Below are positions 24,258 to 39,285 of a DNA stretch of 42,158 bases, piece after piece. Made by a program: the position numbers and the translations under genes. Position 1 is the first letter of the stretch. The number at the start of each line of letters is the position of its first letter. The notes beneath the pieces were generated by a model. It had not been told where the DNA came from and did not search any database. It was given only the letters and a program-made list of their open reading frames with translations. The stretch comes from Candidatus Ornithospirochaeta avicola. GTDB lineage: Bacteria > Spirochaetota > Spirochaetia > Sphaerochaetales > Sphaerochaetaceae. The stretch is taken from positions 1 to 42,158 of the forward strand of contig DXHU01000022.1 of the NCBI GenBank assembly GCA_019113245.1, in the 5' to 3' direction.

Positions 24258-25997
24258 ATGAACAGGGAAAGTGGAATCAGAATGAAAATCATCGCGCTCT
24301 CGCTTGTAATCATGATGGTTCTTCTTGCCGCATTCTCACTCCTTTTGATAAACATCTCAAACAGAACATATAGAGAAAGATACATCAGCGACAGCTTTTC
24401 ACAGCTTTCTGAATACATGATGAGACTTGACACGATAAAGGACAATATCGAGAAGCTACTTATCAGGGTAAGCATAAATGAGAATTTGAAAAGCAGCCTC
24501 AGGAGCGGGGATTCTCTTTCATGGTTTGACAGCTATGAGGAGATAAGCAGTTTCATCGAGGCAAATCCCTCCTACTTTTACATAAACCGCATAGTCGTCT
24601 CAGACTCATCTTTCTCCCGCTTCATACAGGTTGGAAACGATATCTCAAACTCAAAGCCCCTCAACATGGAAAGAGTGCTGAGAGAAATAGAGGCCTCAAG
24701 TGACCTATTTTGCAATGTAAGCTACTCAGAACTCTCATTCTCAGGAGACCTTGAGAGCAGACTGAGCATGGAGATAATAGACTACAACACAGGACTCACG
24801 CTTGGCTATGTGACAGCCGCCATATCCATGACAAAAGTCCTTGATGTCATGAGCGATATCAATCAGCCTTATATATCATATGCAATATACACTGACGGGG
24901 CGGCATACACAGCTGGAGAAAACGGGGTTACCCGCTATAGCGACAATGATTTTCTCGCATCCCCCGATTCCTGGCTTCTCTACTCTCTTTCAGAAAAAGA
25001 GAAAGTATACAAGTACAACGGACTACTGATTGAACAGCTGATTTCTGATGACGGATACTCCCTTCTTTTGCTGTTGAATGAGCCCGATCTCTTTGACGGA
25101 TTCACATCAATGAGCTACATAATTCCGATGATGGTCTTTTCTGCCCTCCTGATAATCACACTGATGGTTGTCTATCTTGACAGGATAATGTACCGTCCGG
25201 TAGTGCGTCTTGCACAGAAAATCAGGAAGATAAGAATCGGAGATTACACGAGGGATGAGAGCATAGAGACCAGCGATGAGCTCGGGCTTGTAGGGAAAGG
25301 CATAAATGACCTTTCAGAGGAAGTAACTACCTTAATTGAGCGTCGCGTTGAGGATGAGAGAGCGAAAATCGAGCTTGAGTATAAAATGCTTCAAAGCCAG
25401 ATAAACCCGCATTTTCTCTATAACACATTGAATGCGATAAAATGGATGGCAACGCTCCAGCATGCTGACGGCATAGCTGAAATGGTCCTCTCTCTTTCGC
25501 GCCTGATGAAGGTGACAAGCAAGGGACAGGGCGGCATGATAAGCCTTGAAGAGGAAATCTCGTTCATTGATGACTACATGACAATCATGCGCTACCGCTA
25601 CGGAAGCACAGTCACTTATATCAAGAGGATTGAAAAAAGTGCCCTTGATGTCAAGATTCCACGATTCACTCTCCAGCCCCTTGTTGAAAACGCCATATTC
25701 CATGGCCTTGAACCAAAGGGAGAAGGATGCGTTGCAATTGTTGCCAAATGCTTTCCATCCTATGTATCGGTCCTTGTGGCAGACAACGGAGTCGGCTTTG
25801 ACACCAAGACAAAGGGAGAGAGAAAAAGTGACGCAATGTTCCGCCATATAGGCATCGAGAATATAACAAAAAGGCTGAAATATGAGTATAATGGAAGAGA
25901 CGTTCTATCGATATGGAGCAAAAAGGGAGTGGGCACATCCTGCATCCTGCAACTTGTAAGGAGTGACGATGATAAGCCGTGTGATAATTGCAGATGA
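24258..25997 (+). CDS. YesM-like sensor histidine kinase of the sugar locus
   Basis: 579 residues. Helix 1 (about 10-32), an extracytoplasmic sensor region of ~255 residues and helix 2 (about 287-308) are followed by a HAMP linker and a His_kinase-type core. The phospho-His is in LQSQINPHFLYN (His385); PLVENAIFHGLEPKG and DNGVGFD form the ATP site. These kinases pair with AraC-type regulators and sense extracellular sugars, often through the binding protein. The start is uncertain: ATG 24258 lies at the predicted transcription start, so the message would be leaderless. ATG 24282 (MKIIALSLVIMM) would give a 25-nt leader with only GGAA as SD. It overlaps the regulator gene by 29 bp. Confidence 0.93.
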   Translation: MNRESGIRMKIIALSLVIMMVLLAAFSLLLINISNRTYRERYISDSFSQLSEYMMRLDTIKDNIEKLLIRVSINENLKSSLRSGDSLSWFDSYEEISSFIEANPSYFYINRIVVSDSSFSRFIQVGNDISNSKPLNMERVLREIEASSDLFCNVSYSELSFSGDLESRLSMEIIDYNTGLTLGYVTAAISMTKVLDVMSDINQPYISYAIYTDGAAYTAGENGVTRYSDNDFLASPDSWLLYSLSEKEKVYKYNGLLIEQLISDDGYSLLLLLNEPDLFDGFTSMSYIIPMMVFSALLIITLMVVYLDRIMYRPVVRLAQKIRKIRIGDYTRDESIETSDELGLVGKGINDLSEEVTTLIERRVEDERAKIELEYKMLQSQINPHFLYNTLNAIKWMATLQHADGIAEMVLSLSRLMKVTSKGQGGMISLEEEISFIDDYMTIMRYRYGSTVTYIKRIEKSALDVKIPRFTLQPLVENAIFHGLEPKGEGCVAIVAKCFPSYVSVLVADNGVGFDTKTKGERKSDAMFRHIGIENITKRLKYEYNGRDVLSIWSKKGVGTSCILQLVRSDDDKPCDNCR

Positions 25998-27570
25998 TGA
26001 ACCTGTGGTACTTGCAGGGCTCTCTTCCTTGATTGATTGGACAAAGGAAGGCTATGAGATTGTCGCAAAGGCAAGGAACGGGCAGGTTCTGCTTGAAGAG
26101 ATTGAACGCCTGAAGCCGGACATTGTCATAACTGACATAAAGATGCCTGTAATGGATGGTTTTGACGTAATTGAAAACCTGAAGGATGCAGAAGACAGGC
26201 CAAGCTTCATCCTCCTCACGAGCTTCGAGGAATTCGATTATGTAAAAAAGGCCATCGGTCTTGATGTAGTTGACTACATTGTAAAACTCGAGCTTAACAG
26301 AGATGACCTATTGAAGGCGCTTGATAAAGCAAGGAAAGCCAGGGAAAACAAGAAGAAAATACTCTCTGAGGATATAAAAAGCTCTGAAAGCCTTGTCGAG
26401 AGCTTCTTCTTCCGCCTGCTTTTCAAGCTAAATGATGACGAGGATGTAAAAGCACAGGCAGAAAGCCTCGCTCTTGACATCTCATTTTCGAAATATGTCG
26501 TCTCCTACACCAAGATCGAGATTTCTGAAAACATGGATAAAAGCCAGGCAGTGGCACTTTACAAATCTGCCATCACACTCCTTTCAGATTCCATCAGCCG
26601 CTATATGAAAAACCACATAGTCCCTCTTGATCTTTCCCATGCGGCTGTGATTTTTGCGTTCAATGCACAGGATGCGGGGGGCTACTACAACCAGATTTTC
26701 CAGGCTCTGAGAAATGCCCAGGAGAATGTAAGATCCCTTTTCAGTCTCAAAGCCACATCATCTGTCGGGCCCGCCGTTGACAATATTCTTCAGATTTCAA
26801 GCTCATTTCACAAAGCGAAAGTGCTGAGCACAAAGAAAACCGAAAGCGATGAAATCCTCATTTCCACACACAGGCAGAACGAGAACTTTGAAGGAAATGA
26901 TTTAGATTTCTCTCAATACCGCGAAAGGATAAAGCAAGCATTTGAAGAACTCAAGGGAGAGGAGATAGAACAAGTGCTCTCAGATCTCATCAATCACATG
27001 AGATATGAGGACATATTGTTTGAAAGTGCTATGGATATCTCTTCAAACGTCCTTTATATGGCAACAAACCTCATTCCTGAATGCGAGGAGATGCTTGAGG
27101 AGATTTTTAGGCCATACTCCACATCGGGCTACCGCTCGCTTTACCTTGCCCGCAACAGCAGCGACTGCATCAGTTTTTTAGAGCATCTTGAAAAAGGGCT
27201 TATAGAGGAACTTGAGAAAAGGCGCCAGGATTACAGGATGATCCAGATAAACAAGATTCAGGGCTATATCATCGACAATATCTCAAGAAAGCTGAGCCTG
27301 AAAGAGGTGGCTGATCTATTCGGCTACAGCCAGGCATATCTTTCAAGCCTTTTTTCGCGCCTCTGCGGTATGAGTTTTGTCGATTATGTGACAAAGGAGA
27401 AGATAACAAGAGCAAAGCAGATGATGGCCACAAGCGATGCAAAGATTTACAGTGTTGCGACATCTCTCGGCTTTGAGTCCCCATTCTACTTCTCGAAGGT
27501 GTTCAAGAAAGTAACAGGGCTTTCGCCCAGCGAATATATAGACAGTTTAGGAAACACAAAGGAGAAATGA
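25969..27570 (+). CDS. YesN-like response regulator with AraC-type DNA-binding domain
   Basis: 533 residues. The receiver domain has the acidic pair in IIADDEP, phospho-acceptor Asp56 in ITDIKMPVMDG and the switch region ILLTSFEEFDYVKKAI. A ~280-residue linker has no recognised domain. The last 100 residues form a double helix-turn-helix of AraC type (LSLKEVADLFGYSQAYLSSLFSRLCGMSF, VATSLGFESPFYFSKVFKKVTGLSPSEY). ATG 25969 has AAGGAG 5 nt upstream; the GTG at 25963 abuts the SD and is unlikely. Paired with the kinase by overlap, it should activate the divergent importer, its own operon and probably the second importer at 31497. Confidence 0.94.
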   Translation: MISRVIIADDEPVVLAGLSSLIDWTKEGYEIVAKARNGQVLLEEIERLKPDIVITDIKMPVMDGFDVIENLKDAEDRPSFILLTSFEEFDYVKKAIGLDVVDYIVKLELNRDDLLKALDKARKARENKKKILSEDIKSSESLVESFFFRLLFKLNDDEDVKAQAESLALDISFSKYVVSYTKIEISENMDKSQAVALYKSAITLLSDSISRYMKNHIVPLDLSHAAVIFAFNAQDAGGYYNQIFQALRNAQENVRSLFSLKATSSVGPAVDNILQISSSFHKAKVLSTKKTESDEILISTHRQNENFEGNDLDFSQYRERIKQAFEELKGEEIEQVLSDLINHMRYEDILFESAMDISSNVLYMATNLIPECEEMLEEIFRPYSTSGYRSLYLARNSSDCISFLEHLEKGLIEELEKRRQDYRMIQINKIQGYIIDNISRKLSLKEVADLFGYSQAYLSSLFSRLCGMSFVDYVTKEKITRAKQMMATSDAKIYSVATSLGFESPFYFSKVFKKVTGLSPSEYIDSLGNTKEK

Positions 27571-27572
27571 CT

Positions 27573-28739
27573 ATGGAAAAGAAACTCTTGAGTGAAAGCG
27601 AGAGAATCAGGGCGCTGGATAATGCATATGCCATTATCAGAAGGAATTTGAAGGAATTCACCTATTCCTGCCAGAGCGAGGCCGGAAAGGATGGATTCTA
27701 TTACCCGATAGAAAATGTTGAATGGACAACCGGATTCTGGCCGGGTGAGCTCTGGCTGATATATGAGTACTCAAAGGATGAGGAGATAAAGAGAGTTGCC
27801 CAGATATTCACCGAGAGCTTCAGAAAGAGAATCGATGAGAAGATTGCTGTCGATCATCATGACATGGGATTCCTCTATACCCCGAGCTGCGTATATGACT
27901 ACATGCTCACACAAAGCGCAGGAGCACGGGATGCCGCAATCAAAGCCGCAGACCAGCTTTTAAGAAGATGGCAGGGAAAAGGACAGTTTCTGCAAGCATG
28001 GGGTGCATTCGGTGCAAAAGAGAATTACCGCTATATAATAGACTGCCTTCTGAATCTTCCGCTCCTTTACTGGGCAAGCGATGAAACAGGGGATGAGAAA
28101 TACAGGAAAACTGCGCTTCTTCATACTGCAACATGCATGGCAAACAGCTTCAGAAGCGACAATTCCACATTCCACACATTCTTCATGGACCCGGAGACTG
28201 GAAAGCCTGTAAGAGGAGAAACATGCCAGGGCTACAAGGCTGACTCTTCATGGGCACGCGGTCAGGCATGGGGTGTATACGGCATGGCACTCAGCTACCG
28301 CCACACAAAGGAGATGAAATACCTTGACAAATTTGAGGCTGTCCTTGACTATTTCCTCTCAAAACTTCCTGAGGACAAGATTCCTTACTGGGATCTGATC
28401 TTCACTTCAGGCGATGAACCAAGGGATTCATCCAGCGCATCAATCGTCGCATGCGGATGCCTTGAGGCTGCAGAAAGCTATGAGAAGCTCAACATGTATG
28501 AAAAGAGCGTGAAATACAAGATGATTGCAAAGGAGCTTCTGAAGGCTGTTTATGACACATGCATGACAGATAAGGACGATATGAGCACAAACGGACTTAT
28601 AAAGCATGGCACATACAGCAAGAAAAGCCCGTACAACACATGTACAGAAAACGGTGTCGATGAGCCTGTATCCTGGGGAGACTATTACTGGCTCGAAGCC
28701 CTGATGAGACTTTCTGGAGAATGGAAATGCATCTGGTAA
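27573..28739 (+). CDS. Glycoside hydrolase family 88 unsaturated glucuronyl hydrolase
   Basis: 388 residues, an (alpha/alpha)6 barrel. Matches to GH88: WTTGFWPGELWLIYEYS, HHDMGFLYTPS with the first catalytic-type Asp (Asp97), YIIDCLLNLPLLYWAS with the second (Asp157), and SSWARGQAWGVYGMA. The enzyme hydrates the 4,5-unsaturated uronic acid that polysaccharide lyases leave at the non-reducing end of glycosaminoglycan oligosaccharides, releasing it as a keto acid. No signal peptide, so cytoplasmic. ATG 27573 has GGAG 8 nt upstream; the earlier ATG 27567 is too close to the SD. It overlaps the lyase gene downstream by 13 bp. Confidence 0.92.
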   Translation: MEKKLLSESERIRALDNAYAIIRRNLKEFTYSCQSEAGKDGFYYPIENVEWTTGFWPGELWLIYEYSKDEEIKRVAQIFTESFRKRIDEKIAVDHHDMGFLYTPSCVYDYMLTQSAGARDAAIKAADQLLRRWQGKGQFLQAWGAFGAKENYRYIIDCLLNLPLLYWASDETGDEKYRKTALLHTATCMANSFRSDNSTFHTFFMDPETGKPVRGETCQGYKADSSWARGQAWGVYGMALSYRHTKEMKYLDKFEAVLDYFLSKLPEDKIPYWDLIFTSGDEPRDSSSASIVACGCLEAAESYEKLNMYEKSVKYKMIAKELLKAVYDTCMTDKDDMSTNGLIKHGTYSKKSPYNTCTENGVDEPVSWGDYYWLEALMRLSGEWKCIW

Positions 28740-30535
28740 AGAATGCGCTGAAAGGCTGCAATGTCACACCCGCCTCATTTTCTGACTTCTCATCTTCAAA
28801 CCGCGCCTTATATGATGAAGTGGACGAAAAGACAAGAAGAGCTTATATAAAGAATGCAGATTCAATGCTTAAAAAAGGCTACAGTGAAATAAGCCTTCCT
28901 CTGTTCAGGGAATTCTTTGCAACCGGGGACAGAAAGCATCATGAGACTTTGTATTTTTTCAAGCGCAGGAAGCTCAGCGTCCTTACATGCGCTGAAGCTC
29001 TTGAGAATGAAGGAAGATTCATCCCTGAGATTGAAAACGGGATCTACAGCCTTTTAAGTGAGCCTTCATGGGTTATTCCGGCACATAACAGCTACATCCG
29101 TGACACGCCTCAGCTTCCGACTCCCGATATCTCCCGTCCTGTTCTGGATCTCTTTGCATGCGAAAGCGGAGAAATCCTTGCTCTTGTAAAAGAGGTTCTT
29201 GGAACAAAAATCGATCCGATTCTGAAAAAAGATATCGAATTTGAACTCATGAGGAGGGTAATCAGGCCATATCTTGAGGATCATTTCTGGTGGATGGGAG
29301 GATGCGGAAAGCTCAATAACTGGAGCGTCTGGTGCACGCAGAACGTGCTGGTTGCAGCCATCTCTCTTCCACTTTCAGAAAAAGAGCTTTCTCTTGTGAT
29401 AAAAAAAGCTGTCAGGACAATGGATCTGTGGCTTGATGAATACAAAAAAGACGGATGCTGCGATGAAGGGGCATCTTATTATCATGCTGCAGGACTTGCA
29501 CTCTTCGGGTGCCTCTATCTGCTGGACAGAGTTGCAAATGGAGCCATGACGCCGGTTTTTGAGAACGAGAAGATCAGAAACATCGCTTCATATATTGAGA
29601 AAGTGTTTGTCCAGGACGACATCTATCTCAATTTTGCGGACTGCTCACCAAAGGCAGGAAGGCTTTCAGCACGAGAATTCCTTTTTGCTGAAAAATGCGG
29701 GAATGAAGAGATGATGGCTCATGCGAGAAAGGACTACATAAAAGAGACATATAAGGGAGAGGAGGACAACAACTACAATCTCTTTTACATGCTTCTTGCC
29801 CTTTCTTCTGACAAGAAAATAAGAACATATAAGGGAGAAAGCAAAAAAAGGAAAGCTCTTTCCTTTACTGACTTTCCCTCAGTGGGTCTTACAATCTACA
29901 GAGAAAAAGATATCACGCTTGCTGTAAAGAGCGGGTCAAATGATGACAGCCACAACCATAATGATGTGGGATCCATAACTCTTTATAAGGGCAAGAAGCC
30001 TCTTTTAATAGACATCGGAGTTGAAACTTACACAAAAAAGACATTCTCTCCTGAGCGCTACACTCTATTCCCGATGAGGAGCATTTATCATAACACGGTC
30101 AATTTCCCTCCTGTTGAACAGAAAGCAGGAAAAGAGTTCAGGGTAACAGAGAGAAAGGTAAGCCAATCTTCCATCTCATTCCATCTTGAGAAGGCTTACG
30201 GCGATGAGAGAATTGAAAGCTATGTCAGATCCGTATTCTTCAACCGCAAGGATGGTAGCATCAAAGTAAAGGATGAGACATCTTCATCACTTTCTCCATG
30301 CCTGAGCATAATAACTCAGGAGGAGCCTGAAATTAGTGAAAACAGGATTTCATTTCCTTCCTTTGAAATAAACTTTACAGGTGCAGAAAAGATTGAGAAG
30401 GAAATCATTGAGATTTCTGACCAGAGACTGATGAAGATGTGGAAAAGCCCTATTTATAGATGTCTGGTGCCGTTTGTAAAAGATCTTGAATGGAAAATAA
30501 CATATAGAGAACAAGGAGAAAAAAGTGAAAATTGA
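28727..30535 (+). CDS. Heparinase II/III-family polysaccharide lyase, cytoplasmic
   Basis: 602 residues: an alpha-toroid N-terminal half (about 1-370) and a beta-sandwich heparinase II/III domain (about 375-600). Candidate catalytic elements follow the order known for Pedobacter heparinase II: NNWSVWCTQN (about 197-206), EGASYYH (about 247-253, catalytic Tyr) and NDDSHNHNDVGS (about 405-416, catalytic His), with FPMRSIYHNTV after it. Family members beta-eliminate uronate-containing glycosaminoglycans or alginate. There is no signal peptide, so it should cut imported oligosaccharides in the cytoplasm. ATG 28727 has GGAG 7 nt upstream. The product is the substrate type of the GH88 encoded directly before it. 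Exact PL family and substrate cannot be fixed by eye. Confidence 0.88.
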   Translation: MHLVKNALKGCNVTPASFSDFSSSNRALYDEVDEKTRRAYIKNADSMLKKGYSEISLPLFREFFATGDRKHHETLYFFKRRKLSVLTCAEALENEGRFIPEIENGIYSLLSEPSWVIPAHNSYIRDTPQLPTPDISRPVLDLFACESGEILALVKEVLGTKIDPILKKDIEFELMRRVIRPYLEDHFWWMGGCGKLNNWSVWCTQNVLVAAISLPLSEKELSLVIKKAVRTMDLWLDEYKKDGCCDEGASYYHAAGLALFGCLYLLDRVANGAMTPVFENEKIRNIASYIEKVFVQDDIYLNFADCSPKAGRLSAREFLFAEKCGNEEMMAHARKDYIKETYKGEEDNNYNLFYMLLALSSDKKIRTYKGESKKRKALSFTDFPSVGLTIYREKDITLAVKSGSNDDSHNHNDVGSITLYKGKKPLLIDIGVETYTKKTFSPERYTLFPMRSIYHNTVNFPPVEQKAGKEFRVTERKVSQSSISFHLEKAYGDERIESYVRSVFFNRKDGSIKVKDETSSSLSPCLSIITQEEPEISENRISFPSFEINFTGAEKIEKEIIEISDQRLMKMWKSPIYRCLVPFVKDLEWKITYREQGEKSEN

Positions 30536-31298
30536 AATCATAAGAGAAGGATCTGTATACCGCTCTGCAGAGCAGAAAAACGAAGCTTACCTCGTATTTG
30601 AAGAAGAATACAAGGAAGGAGATGTAATCAAAGTCACAGCAGAAGGAAAAGGCTTTGTGACAATCCAGCTTGATGCAGTCCTTGGAAGAAGCACAGTATA
30701 CACTGACGGAAGTGCATATTGCCTCACTGTTCCCTTTGGACAGAAGCATGACTGCTATCACCCTGCCGCATTCAAGGGAGATATCCATTTCCTGTGGATA
30801 AGAAATGCATACAGCTGGGAATACGGATACAGGAATCTTGCTTTAAATCCATATGACAGCCATGAGAACACTGCATTCTTCCCTCACAGCAAGGCAAATA
30901 TCGAGACAAGAGGAGAAAGCGTGTTTGCTTCCCGCAATGCAATGGACGGCATAATTGCTGCAAACAACCACGGAAGATGGCCATGGTCAAGCTGGGGAAT
31001 CAATAAGGACCCGAAGGCTGAGATGTATATTGATTTCTGCCGTGATGTGCTTGTTGACAGGATTGTGTTCTATAACCGCGCAGATTTCCCGCATGATGCA
31101 TGGTGGGACAGTGCGGAAATCACATTCTCAGACGGGAGCACGGAAGTCTTCAATTTCGTAAAGAAAGACGGGGCACAGAGCTTTGATATCAAGCAAAGGA
31201 AGATAAGCGCGCTAACACTCCATTCGCTCATCAAGGCAGATGACCCTTCCCCGTTCCCTGCTCTGATTCAGCTTGAAGTGTACGGAAAAGAGTGCTGA
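30525..31298 (+). CDS. Conserved hypothetical with discoidin (F5/8 C)-like C-terminal domain
   Basis: 257 residues, no signal peptide. Residues ~1-100 are beta-rich with EGDVIKVTAEGKGFVTIQLD, resembling a carbohydrate-binding jelly roll. Residues ~110-257 resemble a discoidin/CBM32-like domain: ASRNAMDGIIAANNHGRWPWSSWG, EMYIDFCRDVLVDRIVFYNRADFPHDAWWDSAEITFSDGS and a closing LIQLEVYG. GTG start with AAGGAG 6 nt upstream; it overlaps the lyase by 11 bp and is the last gene before a terminator. It is likely to bind or process the same oligosaccharide; no catalytic residues are recognisable. Confidence 0.75.
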   Translation: MKIEIIREGSVYRSAEQKNEAYLVFEEEYKEGDVIKVTAEGKGFVTIQLDAVLGRSTVYTDGSAYCLTVPFGQKHDCYHPAAFKGDIHFLWIRNAYSWEYGYRNLALNPYDSHENTAFFPHSKANIETRGESVFASRNAMDGIIAANNHGRWPWSSWGINKDPKAEMYIDFCRDVLVDRIVFYNRADFPHDAWWDSAEITFSDGSTEVFNFVKKDGAQSFDIKQRKISALTLHSLIKADDPSPFPALIQLEVYGKEC

Positions 31299-31317
31299 AA
31301 TGCATTTTAAGAATCAC

Positions 31318-31350
31318 GGGCATGGGGCTTTCCTCATGCCCTTCTTTTTT
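31318..31350 (+). terminator. Strong terminator of the lyase operon
   Basis: GGGCATGGGG (31318-31327) pairs with CCTCATGCCC (31332-31341), a 10-bp stem with one G-T and a CTTT loop. TTCTTTTTT follows. It starts 19 bp after the last gene. Confidence 0.85.
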
Positions 31351-31406
31351 CATCAAATACAATAAGTTAGCATATGATTTATGACATTAAAAAAACTTAC
31401 GTAATG

Positions 31407-31422
31407 TTTTTACATGTAATAT
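31407..31422. promoter_or_regulatory. Palindromic element TTTTTACATGTAATAT at the second importer promoter
   Basis: It contains the perfect palindrome TTACATGTAA (31410-31419) and overlaps the -35 box. Both halves recur in the divergent promoter region at 24178-24229. A second palindrome, TTACGTAA, lies about 13 bp upstream. Likely operator for the locus regulator. Confidence 0.55.
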
Positions 31423-31437
31423 ATTCTCTTGTAATAT
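31409..31437 (+). promoter_or_regulatory. Sigma-70 type promoter of the second importer
   Basis: -35 TTTACA (31409-31414), 17-bp spacer, -10 TAATAT (31432-31437), giving a leader of about 53 nt. A weaker second candidate (TTGATT 31460-31465, 18-bp spacer, TATATT 31484-31489) would start at the ATG itself. Confidence 0.6.
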
Positions 31438-31496
31438 AAGAAATTATTTAAGTTCAGTATTGATTATATTCTTATATTCAGGTTATATTTTCCTAG

Positions 31497-32303
31497 ATGA
31501 CTTATAAAAGAAAGGCATACTTATATCTTCTTCCTTCCCTCATCCTGGCAACTGTTTTCTTCATCCTGCCAGCACTTGCAGCAGCTTTCTCTTCTCTCTC
31601 CTCTCCCAGCGGGTATATAAGCCTCTTTAAAAAGAGATATTTCCTTCTTTCTGTTAAGAACACACTACTGTTCACTCTCTTATTCATTCCTATTAATACG
31701 CTTTTTTCTCTTGTTCTTGCCGCTCTTACGAGAAAAGATGACAAAATATCTCTCTTTTTTAGAAATATATATATTATTCCCCTTTCTTTTTCTCTTGCGC
31801 TCATTGCAGTTGTTTTCAAGAAGATGCTTTCATCACACAGCGGGATAATTAACAGGATGCTGGGCCTTGATTTCTCTTTACTGGACAGCACTTCCGGATC
31901 CTTTGCATCTCTTGTGTTTTTATCATTATTTCTTGATGTTGCTATTAATTACATAATACTCTACTCATCTTTCAGATCCATTGATAAGAGCATAATTGAA
32001 ATGGCCATGATTGACGGAGCAAAGAAAAGCCGGCTTTTTTTCTCAATAGAAATTCCCTTGATAAAGAAAGCCATCTTCCTTGTGCTCGCTCTTGGAATAA
32101 AGGATGCTCTTCTGATTTCCTCTCCCATAATGATTTTGACATCAGGAGGTCCTTTCAGAAGCACAGAAAGCATAATGTTCTTTTATTATGTGGAAGCATT
32201 CAACAACATGAATTACTCATATGCGAACTCTATTTCAACTCTTATGCTCAGCCTCAGCATCTCGTCATCGCTTTTTTTTGCGAAGAGGAGGAAACATGAT
32301 TAA
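31497..32303 (+). CDS. Carbohydrate ABC transporter permease (MalF/UgpA type)
   Basis: 268 residues, six predicted helices, opening with the family-typical KRKAYLYLLPSLILATVFFILP. EAA loop IEMAMIDGAKKSRLFFSIEIPLIKKAI (about 164-190). It is shorter than most MalF-like subunits, mainly through short loops, but not truncated. No Shine-Dalgarno sequence precedes the ATG (TTTTCCTAG-ATG), which is odd for the first gene of an operon. It overlaps the next permease by 8 bp. It belongs to a second importer in the same sugar locus, without an ATPase gene. Confidence 0.88.
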   Translation: MTYKRKAYLYLLPSLILATVFFILPALAAAFSSLSSPSGYISLFKKRYFLLSVKNTLLFTLLFIPINTLFSLVLAALTRKDDKISLFFRNIYIIPLSFSLALIAVVFKKMLSSHSGIINRMLGLDFSLLDSTSGSFASLVFLSLFLDVAINYIILYSSFRSIDKSIIEMAMIDGAKKSRLFFSIEIPLIKKAIFLVLALGIKDALLISSPIMILTSGGPFRSTESIMFFYYVEAFNNMNYSYANSISTLMLSLSISSSLFFAKRRKHD

Positions 32304-33093
32304 AAAGGCTCTCATCCTCATATTTGCCGTCCTGCTCATTTTCCCCCTTTTTCATGCAGTCTGCCTTTCTTTATTCTCTCCTTCAGACTTCTACTCCACT
32401 CCTGCCAGATTTTTCCCATCAGCATTGCATTTTGAGAACTATAAGGCAATATTTGACTCATATTCTTTATTGAGACCTTTAATCAACACAATTGCAGTTG
32501 CAATGGTGACAGGAGCTCTGAGAATACTGATCATACTTCCTGCATCCTATGCAATAAGCAATATGAATTTCCGTTTCAGAAAGGCAATATCTGCCATTCT
32601 GATTATCCCCATGTTGATTCCTCAGGATGTGGTCCTGCATTCTAATTATAAAATAATAGCAGCACTTGGACTTCTTGATACGCTTCAAGGCATCAGTTGC
32701 GCATGCATATATTCAGCCTCTTCTTTCATAATAATCCATCTCTCTCTTTCCTCTGTTCCAGAAGAACTGATTGGAGCTGCAAAAATCGACGGAGCTGAGG
32801 ATTGCATGATTCTCATAAAGATAATTGTTCCTCTCATCCGCAACACGATAGCTCTTATCTTCATCCAGGCTTTTTTAAATCAGTTCAACTCATATCTCTG
32901 GCCATTAGTGGTGTCCTCAAGCGAGGAAAGCAGGATGCTCCAGATTGCCATAAACCAGCTTGGTTTTATCGAAGATGGAAATATGGGAGCAGTTTTTGCC
33001 TCAATTTCATTCATCTTCATTCTGAGTCTTTTTTTGATACTCAGCATGAGAAAAAGAATATTTTCAGCAACAGAAGATAGTCTTCTGTTTTAA
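32296..33093 (+). CDS. Carbohydrate ABC transporter permease (MalG/UgpE type)
   Basis: 265 residues with six predicted helices and the MalG-type EAA loop PEELIGAAKIDGAEDCMILIKIIVPLIRNTIALI (about 173-206). ATG 32296 is set by GAGGAGGA just upstream; the open frame reaches 25 codons further back inside the preceding gene, in a different frame, and is not used. It is followed after 11 bp by the binding-protein gene, so order is permease, permease, binding protein, the reverse of the first importer. Confidence 0.9.
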   Translation: MIKKALILIFAVLLIFPLFHAVCLSLFSPSDFYSTPARFFPSALHFENYKAIFDSYSLLRPLINTIAVAMVTGALRILIILPASYAISNMNFRFRKAISAILIIPMLIPQDVVLHSNYKIIAALGLLDTLQGISCACIYSASSFIIIHLSLSSVPEELIGAAKIDGAEDCMILIKIIVPLIRNTIALIFIQAFLNQFNSYLWPLVVSSSEESRMLQIAINQLGFIEDGNMGAVFASISFIFILSLFLILSMRKRIFSATEDSLLF

Positions 33094-33104
33094 TAGGAGG
33101 AAAA

Positions 33105-34376
33105 ATGAAAAGATCTGTATTGCTGTTTATGTCATCACTTCTCTTTATCTCATCCCTTTTTCCGTCCGGAGCAAAAGAAGATGAGAATACAATAGAAATA
33201 TGGCACTCAAACACGGGGGCAAAGGCAGAGGCATTTGAAAACATAGTTGATAATTTCAACAGCACGCACGAAAATCTGAAAATAAAGGCTGTTTATCAGG
33301 GCAGTGCAAGCGATGTGCTTACAAAAGTGAAAAGCGCAGAATCAGCTGGAGGGAAAACCCTTCCAGACATTGCCATACTGGATGCTACAAGCGCGCTTGA
33401 CATGTCAAGAAGCCGCTTTCTGGTGACTCCTGAAGAGCTTGAGATCGACACATCTGTGCTCCTTGATAAAGCACTTTCAGAATACTCATATAAGGATGTG
33501 CATATAGGACTTCCGTTTTCTGCCTCAGCCCTTCTGATGTACTCCAATGCTACGCTTTTTGAAGAGGCATCTCTTGCTATCCCCTCCACTCTGGATGAGA
33601 TGACAGCGGCAGGAAAGGTGATGAAAGAGAAAACAGGAGCATATATTCTCTCTTGTGTCCCATCCACATACGAGATGATTACTTTCCTCTCCTCCCAGAA
33701 CGGCGGATGCTACATTACCGATAACAGGAACGGCCATGACGGGATACCGGAAAACGTGCTCTTTGACGATAACGGAACGTTCACTTTCTTTCTTGAAAAA
33801 TGGATAGCGCTTTCTGAAACAGGTGCTCTTAACAGCATCACAAGCGGTGCTGAGGATGAGTTCCTGACAGGAAAGACTGCATCTGTCTTCCTCTCCTCAT
33901 CCAATCTTGAGAACATGATTAATAAAATCAACGGACGCTTTGATCTCTCAGTCTCCCCCGCTCCTCTTGTGAATGAAAATGCAACAGGAGGAGAGAATAT
34001 TGGAGGAGGATATCTTGCATTCTTTTCCCAAAATTATGGCGTGAAAGAAGTAGCAGAGTACCTTATCAGTGAAGATGTACAGCTTTACTTTGCAATGAAC
34101 ACCGGATATGTTCCCGTGAACAAAAAAGTATATGACAATCCTCAGTGGAAGAGTTTTTTAGAGGAAAATCCCCTTTTCAGCGTTGCTCCAGAGATAATAT
34201 CAGAATCATCAGACAAGGTCATGGGACTCTGGATTCCTTCTGCCTACCAGATCTACCATTCTTTCCAGAAGACCATCAAGGATGCTGTGGATAAGAAGAT
34301 AAATGTTAAAGAAGCAGAAGATATCATGGCAAAGGAGATTGAAAGCGCGCTCAATGAGTACAGAAGGATCAATTGA
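33105..34376 (+). CDS. Family 1 extracellular solute-binding protein (UgpB-like), no lipobox
   Basis: 423 residues. The N-terminal signal MKRSVLLFMSSLLFISSLFPSGA has no Cys, so unlike the binding protein at 22833 it is not a lipoprotein; a cleavable signal is predicted. The mature part (IEIWHSNTGAKAEAFENIVDNFNSTHENLKIKAVYQGSASDVL, LPDIAILDAT, YLISEDVQLYFAMNTGYVPVNKKVY) matches UgpB-like family 1 proteins. SD AGGAGG is 5 nt before the ATG. The 3' end overlaps the convergent MerR gene by 8 bp. It serves the importer formed by the two preceding permeases; the ligand is probably an oligosaccharide of the same pathway. Confidence 0.92.
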   Translation: MKRSVLLFMSSLLFISSLFPSGAKEDENTIEIWHSNTGAKAEAFENIVDNFNSTHENLKIKAVYQGSASDVLTKVKSAESAGGKTLPDIAILDATSALDMSRSRFLVTPEELEIDTSVLLDKALSEYSYKDVHIGLPFSASALLMYSNATLFEEASLAIPSTLDEMTAAGKVMKEKTGAYILSCVPSTYEMITFLSSQNGGCYITDNRNGHDGIPENVLFDDNGTFTFFLEKWIALSETGALNSITSGAEDEFLTGKTASVFLSSSNLENMINKINGRFDLSVSPAPLVNENATGGENIGGGYLAFFSQNYGVKEVAEYLISEDVQLYFAMNTGYVPVNKKVYDNPQWKSFLEENPLFSVAPEIISESSDKVMGLWIPSAYQIYHSFQKTIKDAVDKKINVKEAEDIMAKEIESALNEYRRIN

Positions 34377-34837: not shown

Positions 34838-34869
34838 AAAAATCCTCCGGAGTGGACTTCTCCGGAGGA
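34838..34869 (-). terminator. Terminator of the large lipoprotein gene
   Basis: TCCTCCGGAG (34843-34852) and CTCCGGAGGA (34860-34869) form a perfect 10-bp stem with a 7-nt loop. On the minus strand the stem is followed by TTTTT (complement of 34838-34842). Confidence 0.85.
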
Positions 34870-34875
34870 TGATGA

Positions 34876-37800
34876 TCACCTGATAAGAATATTCACTTCC
34901 TCAGTATGCACAAGATTATCTGAGTCATATATAAGGATTTCAACCTTGTGCAGGCCATCAGCTGCATCTGGAGAAATCCTCACCTCAGCACCCTGCCCGT
35001 TCTGCATTGCTGATACAGCATTGTTCCTGTTCTGCCAGCTGTAACGGCTTGAAGTGTTGCTTAAAAGGAATGTGTACCCGCTGTCGACATTTCCGATGTT
35101 TATCACCGGCGTGTTTACAGTAATATCGCTGTCAGTGCTTCTTACTTCAACTCTCACATTTCCGCTTTGAGGACCGATGTTGTTAACAGCCATATCTATA
35201 TAGGCATATCCGCCCTTTTCAAGCTTATTCTCTCCCTTTGCGCTAAGCCCGTAGACCTTTGATGAGAGGATTTCTGGATCAAAGCGCTCAGGGCCTACTG
35301 TGAAAGTCTTTTTGAATGACTTTTCAAGTCCGCTGCTGTCACTAAAGGTGAAGACCATTGTCACTTCCTCTCCAACAGGTGCATCCTTTGAGATTTTTAT
35401 CCTATCATCATCATAGCTTCTCAGGCTCTTGCTTCTTCCGCTTGAAATTGTCTCAAAGTCCCATACCTTTTTAAAGCCCGATGCATATTCGCTCTCACTT
35501 GATGTGTACATCTTCAGTCCGTTTATCGCATTGACTCCTGTGTTTTCAGCCTCAATGCGGACTGCAAACTCCTTTCCAGGATATACTTTCTCAAAGCTGT
35601 CCTTGTTGTAATAGCCAATTGAGGCATCAAGTCCAAGCTCAGGCTTCTTTATCTCAAATGAAATTGGCACTTTCCACTCATCATATCCATTTGAAAGTGT
35701 GAGTGTCAGCGATGCAGTCTTCCCTTCTTCTGCATCATTTGCAATGCGGAAGGAAAGACAGTTTGCGCTCTTGTTTGAAAGAGTGCTGCTTATCGAAACT
35801 CTCCTAAGCTCCGTACTCTGATTCTTTCCTGATAGAATTGTCTTTATGTTGTTTCCGCTGATTGTGCCATAATTGTAGCTGGATTTTGTGACAATTACTC
35901 CATCTGTATTGCTTTCAAGCGTTGCCTTAACACTGACACTGCTCTTCCCGCTGTTTAAAACTGCAAAATCAAGATAAGCGACCTCTCCGATTTCACATAC
36001 TCCGTTTCCGTTTATGGAATCAATAAGCACGCTCTTTTCAATAGAGAGCTTCGAGTCCGGCTTCCTGATCACAACAGGAATTGTTCTCTCCCACACATTG
36101 ATACCGTCGCTCATGCTCACCGTCACATGGGCTACAGTATTCTCTGGAGCATCATCCTTGACTTCTATCTTCATGCTTGATGAGGAAGAGAGACTGGATG
36201 GGTTTGAATTCGTAGTTCTCCCCTTTGCGGCAAGAAGATAATAGCCTGCCCTGATTTCGCTGTTATATTTAAACGGCCCTTTGTTTGGAATATTTATATA
36301 TTCGCTGTCTGTCGAGAGTGTCCATGTAAGGTTTCTGATTCTTGCCTCACCTGAGTTGCGCAAAGCAAAGTCAAGAGATACGGTCTCTCCAGGACTTGCA
36401 ATACCGTCATTGTTCTCATCCGGATCGAATATCTGATAGCGCGTGATTACAGGATTGCTTCTAACACTCACAACAGGAAGTTCTATCTCCCCGCTCCATC
36501 CTCCTTCCGGGCATCCAACCCCTGTTGCAGTCCATTTGATGACTATTGGAGTTCCTGCCTCATAATCAGGACTGACCTTTATCTCAATTCCTCTCTCCTT
36601 CGATGTATTTGTCGTATCTGCAGAAGAATTGAAATAATATGTGCTTACACGTCTTCCTGAGTTCCAGTAATCCCCGCTTCTGATTGACTGAGAGAGAATC
36701 TGCACACCCTTTGTCTCTGTGGTGAATATGATTTTAGGCTCTGCCAGGGCACTCTTTCCTGTGTTCTTGAAAAGATATCCTACCCTGATTGTCTCACCCG
36801 GGTTGATTGTCTTGTCCCCGTCCCCGTCAGTCTCAAGGAAATCGAATTTCTCAAGAACTATGTTTGCATCCGTGTACTTCACCGGCAGCATGATGCTATC
36901 TGATGAGCTTGCTCCAAGAGGAGTTGAAAGTGTGAATGTAAGCGTGATGTTATTTGGCTCTGTCTTATCACTTACAGTGAACTTGTACCTTCCCTTGCCC
37001 TCTGCATTAAGGTACCTTATTCCATTATTCTCACTCGAGGATGAGCCATAGAGCGAGACATACTTGCCCTCTTCAAGGCTTGCATAGCTTGCCCTTCCTG
37101 TGTTTATCTGAATGCCAGCATCGCTTGTGCTCATTATGCTTGTAAGATTATATGCGCTGTCTGAGCCATCTTTAAGCTTCCACAGCACATCAAGAGTAAT
37201 GCTCTCTCCTGGATTGATTACTCCATCCTCATTTGCCTCATCATGAATCTTGTAGCTTACAATCTCTGCATCGAATCCTGATTTTGCAACAGGAATGCTA
37301 ACAGCTTTTTGAGATGTGTATTCTCCTGCGCTTACCTTGACAAGGACATCAACAGCCTCGATATCCTCTGTTACAGGTACGCTTATCTGATAGCGGTTAT
37401 CAGGCATGTTGCGCTCAAAATAGCTGTCATTTATGTTATCTTTTGAGCGTACAACAGAAGAGTCCTCTCCTGCTGCAATGAGTATTCTGGAGGAATAGAC
37501 ATAGTTCTCATAACTATCCGGAGAACCTATCTTTTCCAGCTTTGCTTCCTCACTCAGGCACTCAACAGAGACCTTTAAGTCTGCACTTATCGTTCCTGTA
37601 TTCATAATAAGAGGATAGAAATTGACGGTCTCACCGTAATTGAGCTTTCCATTCTTATCCCCATTGAGGTCCTGGATTATATAGTCCGTATCAAAACTGA
37701 CATACTGCGCATAAAGTGTCTTATCAAGCAGGTCTAGAGCGCTTGCAGGGTTATCTGAGTTATACAGCTCAGAGTCTGAAGAATACTCGCTTCCTGTGCT

Positions 37801-38628
37801 GTATCCGAGGATTATATACCCCTCAGCATCTGGAGACGGGATATCAATTAAATCAGATAGCTCTGCTTCGTATGTATGGACCTCGCTATCTCCGCCAATT
37901 CCGTTGTAGCTGTAGCTTACAGGAATTGAGATATCTACATCAAATGAATTTCCAAAGGGGACAGAAAGAGGATAGCTGTCAAGGCTGCTGATGCTCTCTC
38001 CGCTTTCGTTCCTTACATCCTTGATTATCACGGAATCAGAAAGATAGCCGTATATGTCGCTTTCTATGTTAACATACCTTCCTTCTATCTCAGAGCGGGA
38101 AAGGGAGCGTGTGACTTCCTCTGAGCCCGCTTTATATGTAATAGGAACATCGATTGAGAAATAATCATCACCCCAGGTGAGCGCATTCCAGGAATCTTCT
38201 GCATCAAGGAATTTTATGATGTAGTTTCCAAATTCGTCAGAAAGTTCTCTTATGCTATATTTATAAAGCGCATTAATGTTCTCATTGTACTCATCTCTGG
38301 CCTTATCCATCTCCTCTTCAAGCTTCTGGCCATCGACCATGATTCTTTCAACATCACTCCAGCTTGTAGCTTTTTCCAGCTTCGCCTCAAGACTTTCCTC
38401 TTTCTTGTCAAGCTGGCTTCTCTTGTTCTGGTAGCTCCTGTCCAGCTTTTCAATCTCGCTGAAAAATGAATCTTCATATTCTTCAACCATGCTCTGGATT
38501 TTGTCCAGAGCATCACCTTTTGTAAGGCTTACCAGGATTTTATCGAACTCTTCAGATGCATTGAAACCGCATGATGAGAGTACTAAAAGGCACAGCAGAG
38601 CTAAAAGCAAAAACCATTTCTTCCTCAT
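34876..38628 (-). CDS. Large lipoprotein with tandem Ig-like repeats opened by dockerin-like acidic loops
   Basis: 1250 residues. Lipobox LSSC with lipidated Cys20; a coiled-coil region (about 45-125) may act as a stalk; a beta-rich domain occupies ~150-315. About six repeats of ~135 residues follow. Each opens with an acidic Asn/Asp/Gly loop plus PGE-x-hydrophobic-N-x-G: DLNGDKNGKLNYGE (320-333), DEANEDGVINPGE (463-475), DGDGDKTINPGE (601-612), DPDENNDGIASPGE (735-748), DSINGNGVCEIGE (870-882), and degenerate versions near 1008 and 1129. This resembles CARDB-type adhesion modules with calcium-binding loops. It should be anchored on the cell envelope; adhesion or an S-layer-like role is inference. 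Promoter TTGTTG-17-GATAAT upstream; monocistronic with a strong terminator. Confidence 0.85.
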   Translation of the reverse strand: MRKKWFLLLALLCLLVLSSCGFNASEEFDKILVSLTKGDALDKIQSMVEEYEDSFFSEIEKLDRSYQNKRSQLDKKEESLEAKLEKATSWSDVERIMVDGQKLEEEMDKARDEYNENINALYKYSIRELSDEFGNYIIKFLDAEDSWNALTWGDDYFSIDVPITYKAGSEEVTRSLSRSEIEGRYVNIESDIYGYLSDSVIIKDVRNESGESISSLDSYPLSVPFGNSFDVDISIPVSYSYNGIGGDSEVHTYEAELSDLIDIPSPDAEGYIILGYSTGSEYSSDSELYNSDNPASALDLLDKTLYAQYVSFDTDYIIQDLNGDKNGKLNYGETVNFYPLIMNTGTISADLKVSVECLSEEAKLEKIGSPDSYENYVYSSRILIAAGEDSSVVRSKDNINDSYFERNMPDNRYQISVPVTEDIEAVDVLVKVSAGEYTSQKAVSIPVAKSGFDAEIVSYKIHDEANEDGVINPGESITLDVLWKLKDGSDSAYNLTSIMSTSDAGIQINTGRASYASLEEGKYVSLYGSSSSENNGIRYLNAEGKGRYKFTVSDKTEPNNITLTFTLSTPLGASSSDSIMLPVKYTDANIVLEKFDFLETDGDGDKTINPGETIRVGYLFKNTGKSALAEPKIIFTTETKGVQILSQSIRSGDYWNSGRRVSTYYFNSSADTTNTSKERGIEIKVSPDYEAGTPIVIKWTATGVGCPEGGWSGEIELPVVSVRSNPVITRYQIFDPDENNDGIASPGETVSLDFALRNSGEARIRNLTWTLSTDSEYINIPNKGPFKYNSEIRAGYYLLAAKGRTTNSNPSSLSSSSSMKIEVKDDAPENTVAHVTVSMSDGINVWERTIPVVIRKPDSKLSIEKSVLIDSINGNGVCEIGEVAYLDFAVLNSGKSSVSVKATLESNTDGVIVTKSSYNYGTISGNNIKTILSGKNQSTELRRVSISSTLSNKSANCLSFRIANDAEEGKTASLTLTLSNGYDEWKVPISFEIKKPELGLDASIGYYNKDSFEKVYPGKEFAVRIEAENTGVNAINGLKMYTSSESEYASGFKKVWDFETISSGRSKSLRSYDDDRIKISKDAPVGEEVTMVFTFSDSSGLEKSFKKTFTVGPERFDPEILSSKVYGLSAKGENKLEKGGYAYIDMAVNNIGPQSGNVRVEVRSTDSDITVNTPVINIGNVDSGYTFLLSNTSSRYSWQNRNNAVSAMQNGQGAEVRISPDAADGLHKVEILIYDSDNLVHTEEVNILIR

Positions 38629-38688: not shown

Positions 38689-39285
38689 TCAAAAAATATT
38701 TTTTTTAACTTCTGGAAGCAAATCATAAATTGAGCAATCTGCTTTTCTTTCAAAATATTCTTTTATTTCAATTGTTTTCTTCCATCGGGCGAGCGTGTAA
38801 GGATGCATGCCATACCGTAATGCTACATCCACAAATCTCTTTTCCAGAATACAGAACCCAGTTGGAAGAGAAAGCGCATCGCATAATTGTACAAGACGGT
38901 CATAATCATCATAGTTAGCTGTTTCCAGAAATCTTTTAATAAAAAGAAAATCCTCATCTGTGACATCAAAAACCCCTATGGATGAATGAATGTTCTTAAT
39001 CATGAAGGCATGAGAGATACAAATCTGTGCAGCCTTGTCCCATCTAAAGCCATTACAAAAACGGTATCCGTCAATAAGATGGCGCTCAGAGCTGATGCCT
39101 GTATATCTTCCAATGTCATGAAGCAAACCATAGCAATATGCCAGGTCTGAAGAGAGATTATCACATTTATCTGCTATTCTCTTGCAGGCAATGGCTACAA
39201 ACTTTGAATGGTTAACCCAGCCCCCAGGATTCTGATGTGCAGCCCATTCCAATTGTTTTTCCGCAGTATAGCAATCCAGTATCAT
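38689..39285 (-). CDS. HD-domain metal-dependent phosphohydrolase
   Basis: 198 residues. Metal-ligand residues of the HD superfamily appear in order: His26 (VNHSKF), His56-Asp57 (LLHDIGRY), His69 (ERHLIDG), His92 (ISHAF) and a later Asp in LCDALSL (about 136). Such enzymes hydrolyse phosphate esters of nucleotides or related compounds; the substrate is unknown. SD AGGA lies 7 nt before the ATG, directly after the T-run of an upstream terminator, suggesting conditional read-through from the 80-residue gene. Confidence 0.87.
   Translation of the reverse strand: MILDCYTAEKQLEWAAHQNPGGWVNHSKFVAIACKRIADKCDNLSSDLAYCYGLLHDIGRYTGISSERHLIDGYRFCNGFRWDKAAQICISHAFMIKNIHSSIGVFDVTDEDFLFIKRFLETANYDDYDRLVQLCDALSLPTGFCILEKRFVDVALRYGMHPYTLARWKKTIEIKEYFERKADCSIYDLLPEVKKNIF

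Follow-up and report, generated by a model that had tools for sequence, protein, structure and literature searches.

A predicted lipoprotein with seven tandem Ig-like modules, five of them carrying candidate calcium loops, in a Sphaerochaeta-like spirochaete

The window analysed, a stretch of 42,158 nucleotides from Candidatus Ornithospirochaeta avicola (contig DXHU01000022.1), carries on its minus strand an open reading frame with an ATG start (34876..38628) that encodes a lipoprotein of 1250 amino acids, referred to below as the long protein. Its overall layout is a lipid-anchored helical base, one InlB-type repeat and then seven Ig-like modules (M1 to M7). Directly upstream lies the gene for an HD-domain protein (38689-39285, minus strand), a place taken in the sister species (G020) by a RadC-like gene. 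Among the features given below, M1 to M5 are supported by pairwise alignment, left-out profile, AlphaFold2 and loop pattern, and M6 and M7 by alignment, left-out profile and AlphaFold2.

38569..38628, minus strand: signal peptide and lipobox, residues 1-20 (MRKKWFLLLALLCLLVLSSC), from the sequence and the lipobox cysteine in relatives
38158..38559, minus strand: helical base, residues 24-157, a long helical hairpin and then two shorter helices (AlphaFold2)
37696..37929, minus strand: InlB-type B-repeat, residues 234-311 (VIA-align to InlB)
37288..37713, minus strand: module M1, residues 306-447, with loop DLNGDKNGKLNYGE at 320-333
36871..37287, minus strand: module M2, residues 448-586, with loop DEANEDGVINPGE at 463-475
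36469..36870, minus strand: module M3, residues 587-720, with loop DGDGDKTINPGE at 601-612
36064..36468, minus strand: module M4, residues 721-855, with loop DENNDGIASPGE at 737-748
35659..36063, minus strand: module M5, residues 856-990, with loop DSINGNGVCEIGE at 870-882
35290..35658, minus strand: module M6, residues 991-1113, with a degenerate loop (PGK, no acidic ligands)
34879..35289, minus strand: module M7, residues 1114-1250, C-terminal, with a degenerate loop (GG)
34842..34870, minus strand: terminator-like hairpin directly 3' of the stop codon, of 11 pairs (7 G-C) with a T-rich tail
24258-34376, plus strand: run of polysaccharide-use genes, for a sensor kinase, an AraC-type response regulator, a GH88 enzyme, a solute-binding protein, two ABC permeases, and proteins resembling heparinase II/III and DUF7402

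The N-terminus has the signal peptide and lipobox cysteine that define a bacterial lipoprotein (L17-S-S-C20), lipidation itself being predicted. The lipid anchor proposed in the first-pass annotation is supported by relatives, since the lipobox cysteine is kept in the long homologues of the same genus for which the N-terminus is available (L014, L017, L018, L019 and L020) and in L053, while it is absent from L024, a long relative in another genus. When the protein is cut at the period of the loops, seven modules of 123-142 residues result. Smith-Waterman comparison of module pairs against shuffled sequences gave z scores of up to 15.8 (M4/M5) and of about 11 for M2/M4 and M3/M4, and a profile made each time from the six remaining module types recognised every module, with E-values (computed at Z=1000) from 2e-7 for M1 to 2e-29 for M4. 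The repeat period of about 121-145 residues claimed at first therefore holds, the spacing between loops being 134-142 residues. The accompanying description of a protein built of ~135-residue repeats is correct as to the seven modules but overlooked the helical hairpin, the InlB-type B-repeat and a short paralogue (see below).

AlphaFold2 was run on two overlapping pieces, residues 300-1250 and 21-460. The first, modelled with homologues, is almost all beta (mean pLDDT 81.5), and each loop is placed between the first and second strands (A and B) of its own module; as the pTM of this model is 0.44, module-to-module geometry is not established by it, and stiffness is our inference. Structural matches found with VIA-align are Ig-like/FnIII beta-sandwiches, namely a HAP2 domain (Z 12.8, 116 residues, rmsd 2.6), complement C4 (Z 11.5), Fusexin1 (Fsx1, 11.3) and the Ig-like domain of a Micromonospora sialidase (11.2). 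Single modules superpose on such folds with Z 11-12.8 over 100-116 residues at rmsd 2.2-2.6, which places them among Ig/FnIII beta-sandwiches; rows for RbmA and transglutaminase with rmsd 16-38 were excluded as full-length matches. The Ig-like modules postulated by the first-pass annotation are supported by both the predicted beta modules and these matches, and models without an Ig-like fold, the outcome named beforehand as contrary, did not appear. A search of the PDB for sequence relatives of the modules found none, and weak dehydratase matches in that search were put down to chance. A viral origin was also considered and rejected: a scan of viral contigs with the full-length sequence gave no match, and the viral proteins that resemble it in fold are generic Ig-repeat ones with low TM-scores.

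In the model of residues 21-460 (mean pLDDT 81.7), the helical base is predicted with a pLDDT of about 89-97. Residues 234-311 superpose on InlB 322-390 (7nms) over 68 residues with Z 7.4, rmsd 2.2 and 28% identity, and the same region matches 7pv9 with Z 7.0, so that by its fold this segment belongs with the InlB B-repeats (PF09479, Flg_new). A Z of 7.4 alone is middling, but the assignment is credible because of the 28% identity and because the profile of the short paralogue independently matches an InlB repeat (2y5p, E 1.5e-4). Pfam found no Flg_new match in the long protein, and in short paralogues the scores of 18.2, 20.9 and 25.1 bits are all under the cut-off of 27.

The pattern [DN]x[DN][GK]xx[NSE]xGE occurs exactly five times in the protein, at 324, 466, 603, 739 and 873 (spacings of 142, 137, 136 and 134). 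Shuffled sequences of the same composition contained a mean of 0.004 loops and a maximum of 1 (20,000 shuffles), a very large margin that serves as a guide rather than a blind test, since the pattern was written after the five loops had been viewed. The degenerate loops of M6 and M7 retain PGK/PGE or GG and have lost the acidic residues, so the count of five clear and two degenerate loops given at the outset is upheld. The term "dockerin-like", applied to them at that stage, suits the loop sequence, which resembles the calcium loop of dockerins and EF-hands, but not the domain: each beta module has a single loop in a strand-loop-strand setting instead of the two loop-helix repeats of dockerin type I, and there is no Pfam dockerin match.

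In EF-hand-type loops, the metal is held by positions 1, 3, 5, 7 (through the backbone), 9 and 12, position 6 being glycine and position 8 hydrophobic (PMC3123361). Sequences of the form Dx[DN]xDGx[ILV][DSTN] with an acidic residue, usually E, at position 12 bind Ca2+ in many folds, including strand-loop-strand ones, and CD2 gained a Ca2+ site when such a loop was grafted between two of its strands (PMC3123361). All five loops of the long protein agree with this pattern at positions 3, 5 (D or N) and 12, and agreement at 6, 8 and 9 is usual; the exceptions are K at position 6 of M3 (G in M1, M2, M4 and M5), A and C at position 8 of M4 and M5, respectively, and E at position 9 of M5. Position 1 is N, E, D, D and S in M1-M5, respectively, and is variable in relatives as well; in most modules an acidic residue stands one or two places before it and may take its role. 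The best fit at positions 1, 3, 5 and 12 is that of M3 and M4. Across 22 aligned loop-bearing modules from six species, which share 16-38% identity with the first module, the sole invariant column is the Glu at loop position 12, and no other column apart from Asp-5 and Gly-11 of the loop (both at least 90%) is so strongly kept. Judged from sequence, the loops of M1-M5 are likely to bind Ca2+, though not with equal likelihood in all five, and because position 1 is relaxed in M1, M2 and M5 the affinity could be low.

The closest long relative, in the sister species G020 of the same genus, is 93% identical, and five more distant homologues in the genus align at 27-40% identity. In all, the long form is found in 7 of 48 congeners; more distant long relatives, L024 (G197) and L053 (G346), belong to other genera of the same family. 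All of these relatives carry loops: with a slightly wider pattern, L014 and L015 have five each, L017, L024 and the partial L016 four, and L018, L019 and L053 three. Both L018 and L019 are without the entire M4, so module number changes between species. The long gene is under purifying selection and its loops are kept: the comparison with G020 gives dN 0.037, dS 0.353 and dN/dS of about 0.10, and four of the five loops are identical. The helical N-terminus (residues 1-140) diverges fastest (75.7% identity to G020, dN/dS about 0.32). The long homologue of G015 is split across two contigs, and that of G033 (G033:C77, L015:4497-8122) is in two frames near the N-terminus, the first piece containing a TAA, as in a pseudogene or an assembly error. 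Similar modules are found in scattered other spirochaetes (L090, L093 and L097). Another genus of the family has a second expanded repeat protein, a 1615-residue open frame (G087:C1:164331-166781, L025) in which six or more modules of this type stand in tandem.

The short paralogue, of 390-420 residues, consists of a signal peptide, a helical base, InlB-type repeats and one Ig-like module. In the members tested, the signal peptide is without a lipobox and there is no acidic loop, and Pfam gave no match above cut-off in the short paralogues tested. A family profile search with relatives of ~390-420 residues found matches, for the most part to the short form, in 107 of 139 genomes; this figure is a slight overcount, as a few matches are weak or partial and some are to other repeat proteins. 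The genome carrying the long gene has its own short copy (G000:C23:124736-125905, minus strand; L076:6737-7906, minus strand). Profile-profile comparison of the long and short families with hhalign gave a probability of 99.3, the aligned parts being helical base, InlB-type region and a single Ig-like module. Given this homology and the distribution of the two forms, the long form is most readily understood as a paralogue of the short protein that has expanded and acquired a lipid anchor; the direction of change, from short to long, is read from the distribution. The surroundings of the short gene are kept within genus g1 and not across genera; its neighbours there are genes that we take, from their sequences by eye, to be MATE-like, chorismate-mutase-like and thiamine-pyrophosphokinase-like.

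The neighbourhood of the long gene is kept only in G020, and the other relatives lie elsewhere, those of G033 and G015 sharing a pyruvate:ferredoxin-oxidoreductase-like neighbour. Since it is not conserved beyond G020 except for this shared neighbour, gene context was discarded as a functional clue. The patchy distribution among congeners, together with the differing neighbours, suggests that the long form is accessory. The loop-bearing relative in G197 (L085:3163-3900, plus strand; G197:C51) is divergently placed beside a gene resembling, by eye, a PapD-like periplasmic chaperone.

Among named families, the nearest sequence relatives of the module are the myxobacterial MXAN_5808 family (NCBIfam TIGR03900) and NF038112, which contain a similar loop-bearing module (E 1.8e-11, best stretch residues 419-523). 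These are peptidase families, whereas the long protein has no peptidase match and scores 42.8 bits against a cut-off of 660.95. CARDB, DUF11 and NEW3-type domains have the Ig-like fold in common with the modules, to which a calcium-type loop is added here. Profiles for CARDB (PF07705) and DUF11 (PF01345) gave no match in the long protein or its modules, and relatives give weak matches to CARDB, NPCBM_assoc or DUF11 that stay under the cut-offs (L024 with CARDB, 20.3 against 22.7 bits; L053 with DUF11, 14.5 against 24.6 bits). DUF7932 (PF25560) reaches 27.6 bits for the whole protein against a cut-off of 27, the best stretch covering only profile positions 2-26 of 130, at M2. The likeness to Listeria InlB is confined to the one repeat described above; the long protein has no leucine-rich-repeat or GW match. 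Beta-sandwich modules of RbmA, the tandem FnIII biofilm scaffold of V. cholerae, align with Z 11.2 and no sequence relationship shown, and its two domains do not superpose together, as the rmsd is 16. By analogy, the nearest functional counterpart is the Lig family of Leptospira, whose LigA/LigB Big domains bind Ca2+ at 2-4 uM (PMC3012076). Both are spirochaete proteins of surface type with many tandem Ig-like modules and a role for Ca2+, presumed in the present case; Lig proteins are made of Big domains, whereas here there are candidate EF-hand-type loops, a base of helical hairpin and InlB repeat, and a different spirochaete group. No Big domain appeared among Pfam matches to the long protein at E up to 10. 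The parts are thus all of known kinds, as in other tandem Ig-like bacterial lipoproteins, and searches of the open-access literature gave no description of the long protein or the short paralogue; as far as the tools reach, the combination and the family are undescribed.

The explanation we prefer, to which we would give about even chances, is that the long protein is an outward-facing, calcium-stiffened stalk lipoprotein in the envelope of a non-flagellate, Sphaerochaeta-like spirochaete, that it contacts partners, and that it derives from the short paralogue. The surface adhesin or structural fibre suggested by the first-pass annotation is one of several candidate readings. The order from the lipid anchor outward would be helical hairpin, InlB-type B-repeat and seven tandem Ig-like beta-sandwich modules, and each of M1-M5 would hold one Ca2+ in its 12-residue A-B loop of EF-hand type. 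The A-B loop would lie at the pole of the Ig fold that points toward the next module, where Ca2+ may rigidify both module and junction and so give an extended stalk. M7, which has neither a next module nor a loop, fits such a model, and the loop-less M6 may act as a hinge. The stalk would reach outward, with distal modules perhaps contacting host or dietary polymers or other cells, and would have originated by expansion and lipid anchoring of a short secreted paralogue that is widespread in the family. We favour an outward location on account of the long form's accessory character and of a length far greater than that of this paralogue. The explanation is weakened by M6 and M7 being without ligands and by the lack of a conserved gene neighbourhood that would name a function.

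A possible but doubtful alternative is a periplasmic envelope spacer, a lipid-anchored, calcium-stiffened rod between the membranes that keeps distance or shape where periplasmic flagella and PBP transpeptidases are missing. Profile searches with positive controls found neither a flagellin N domain nor a PBP transpeptidase domain in the genome that carries the long gene (G000, 97% complete, 1.5 Mb), which suits this alternative and also fits the non-spiral Sphaerochaeta group, a monophyletic one (PMC12236494) in which Sphaerochaeta coccoides is reported to have only one transpeptidase (PMC4423922). The short paralogue, as a widespread secreted protein with no anchor, is compatible with a periplasmic role too. 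A form missing from most congeners, which probably have the same envelope, could, however, hardly be a core spacer, and seven modules with a hairpin would probably exceed the normal width of the periplasm. It is far less probable, and close to conjecture, that the long protein and its short paralogue make up a hitherto undescribed system, confined to non-spiral spirochaetes, whose calcium-locked Ig rods strengthen an envelope that has no periplasmic flagella or transpeptidase cross-linking.

That the acidic loops are structural turns that have ceased to bind metal, and the protein an ordinary Ig-repeat lipoprotein, we consider improbable. Plain turns would suit the variable position 1, the loss of the loop from M6 and M7 with the fold intact and its absence from the short paralogues tested; such turns should, however, need neither the invariant Glu-12 nor the nearly invariant Asp-5 of the 22 divergent modules. 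Slightly more improbable still is a role for the lipoprotein in carbohydrate use, as a binder of polysaccharide or by displaying a partner, tied to the adjoining operon with its GH88, heparinase II/III-like and sugar ABC transporter genes, which probably serves a uronate-containing polymer. The Ig-like domain of a bacterial sialidase among the close folds would agree with this, but the long gene is on the opposite strand, has its own terminator-like hairpin and is separated from the operon by a MerR gene, the arrangement is shared with the sister species alone, and Pfam found no carbohydrate-binding family in the long protein.

The long protein adds a family of Ig-repeat lipoproteins with candidate calcium loops to a spirochaete group whose surface has been little studied, and it brings to light a short paralogue, present across most genomes of the family, whose function has no name. 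The five loops that are kept, the two that are lost and the one module gained or lost between species would, should the loops bind calcium, form a natural series on which to test how calcium stiffens an Ig stalk.
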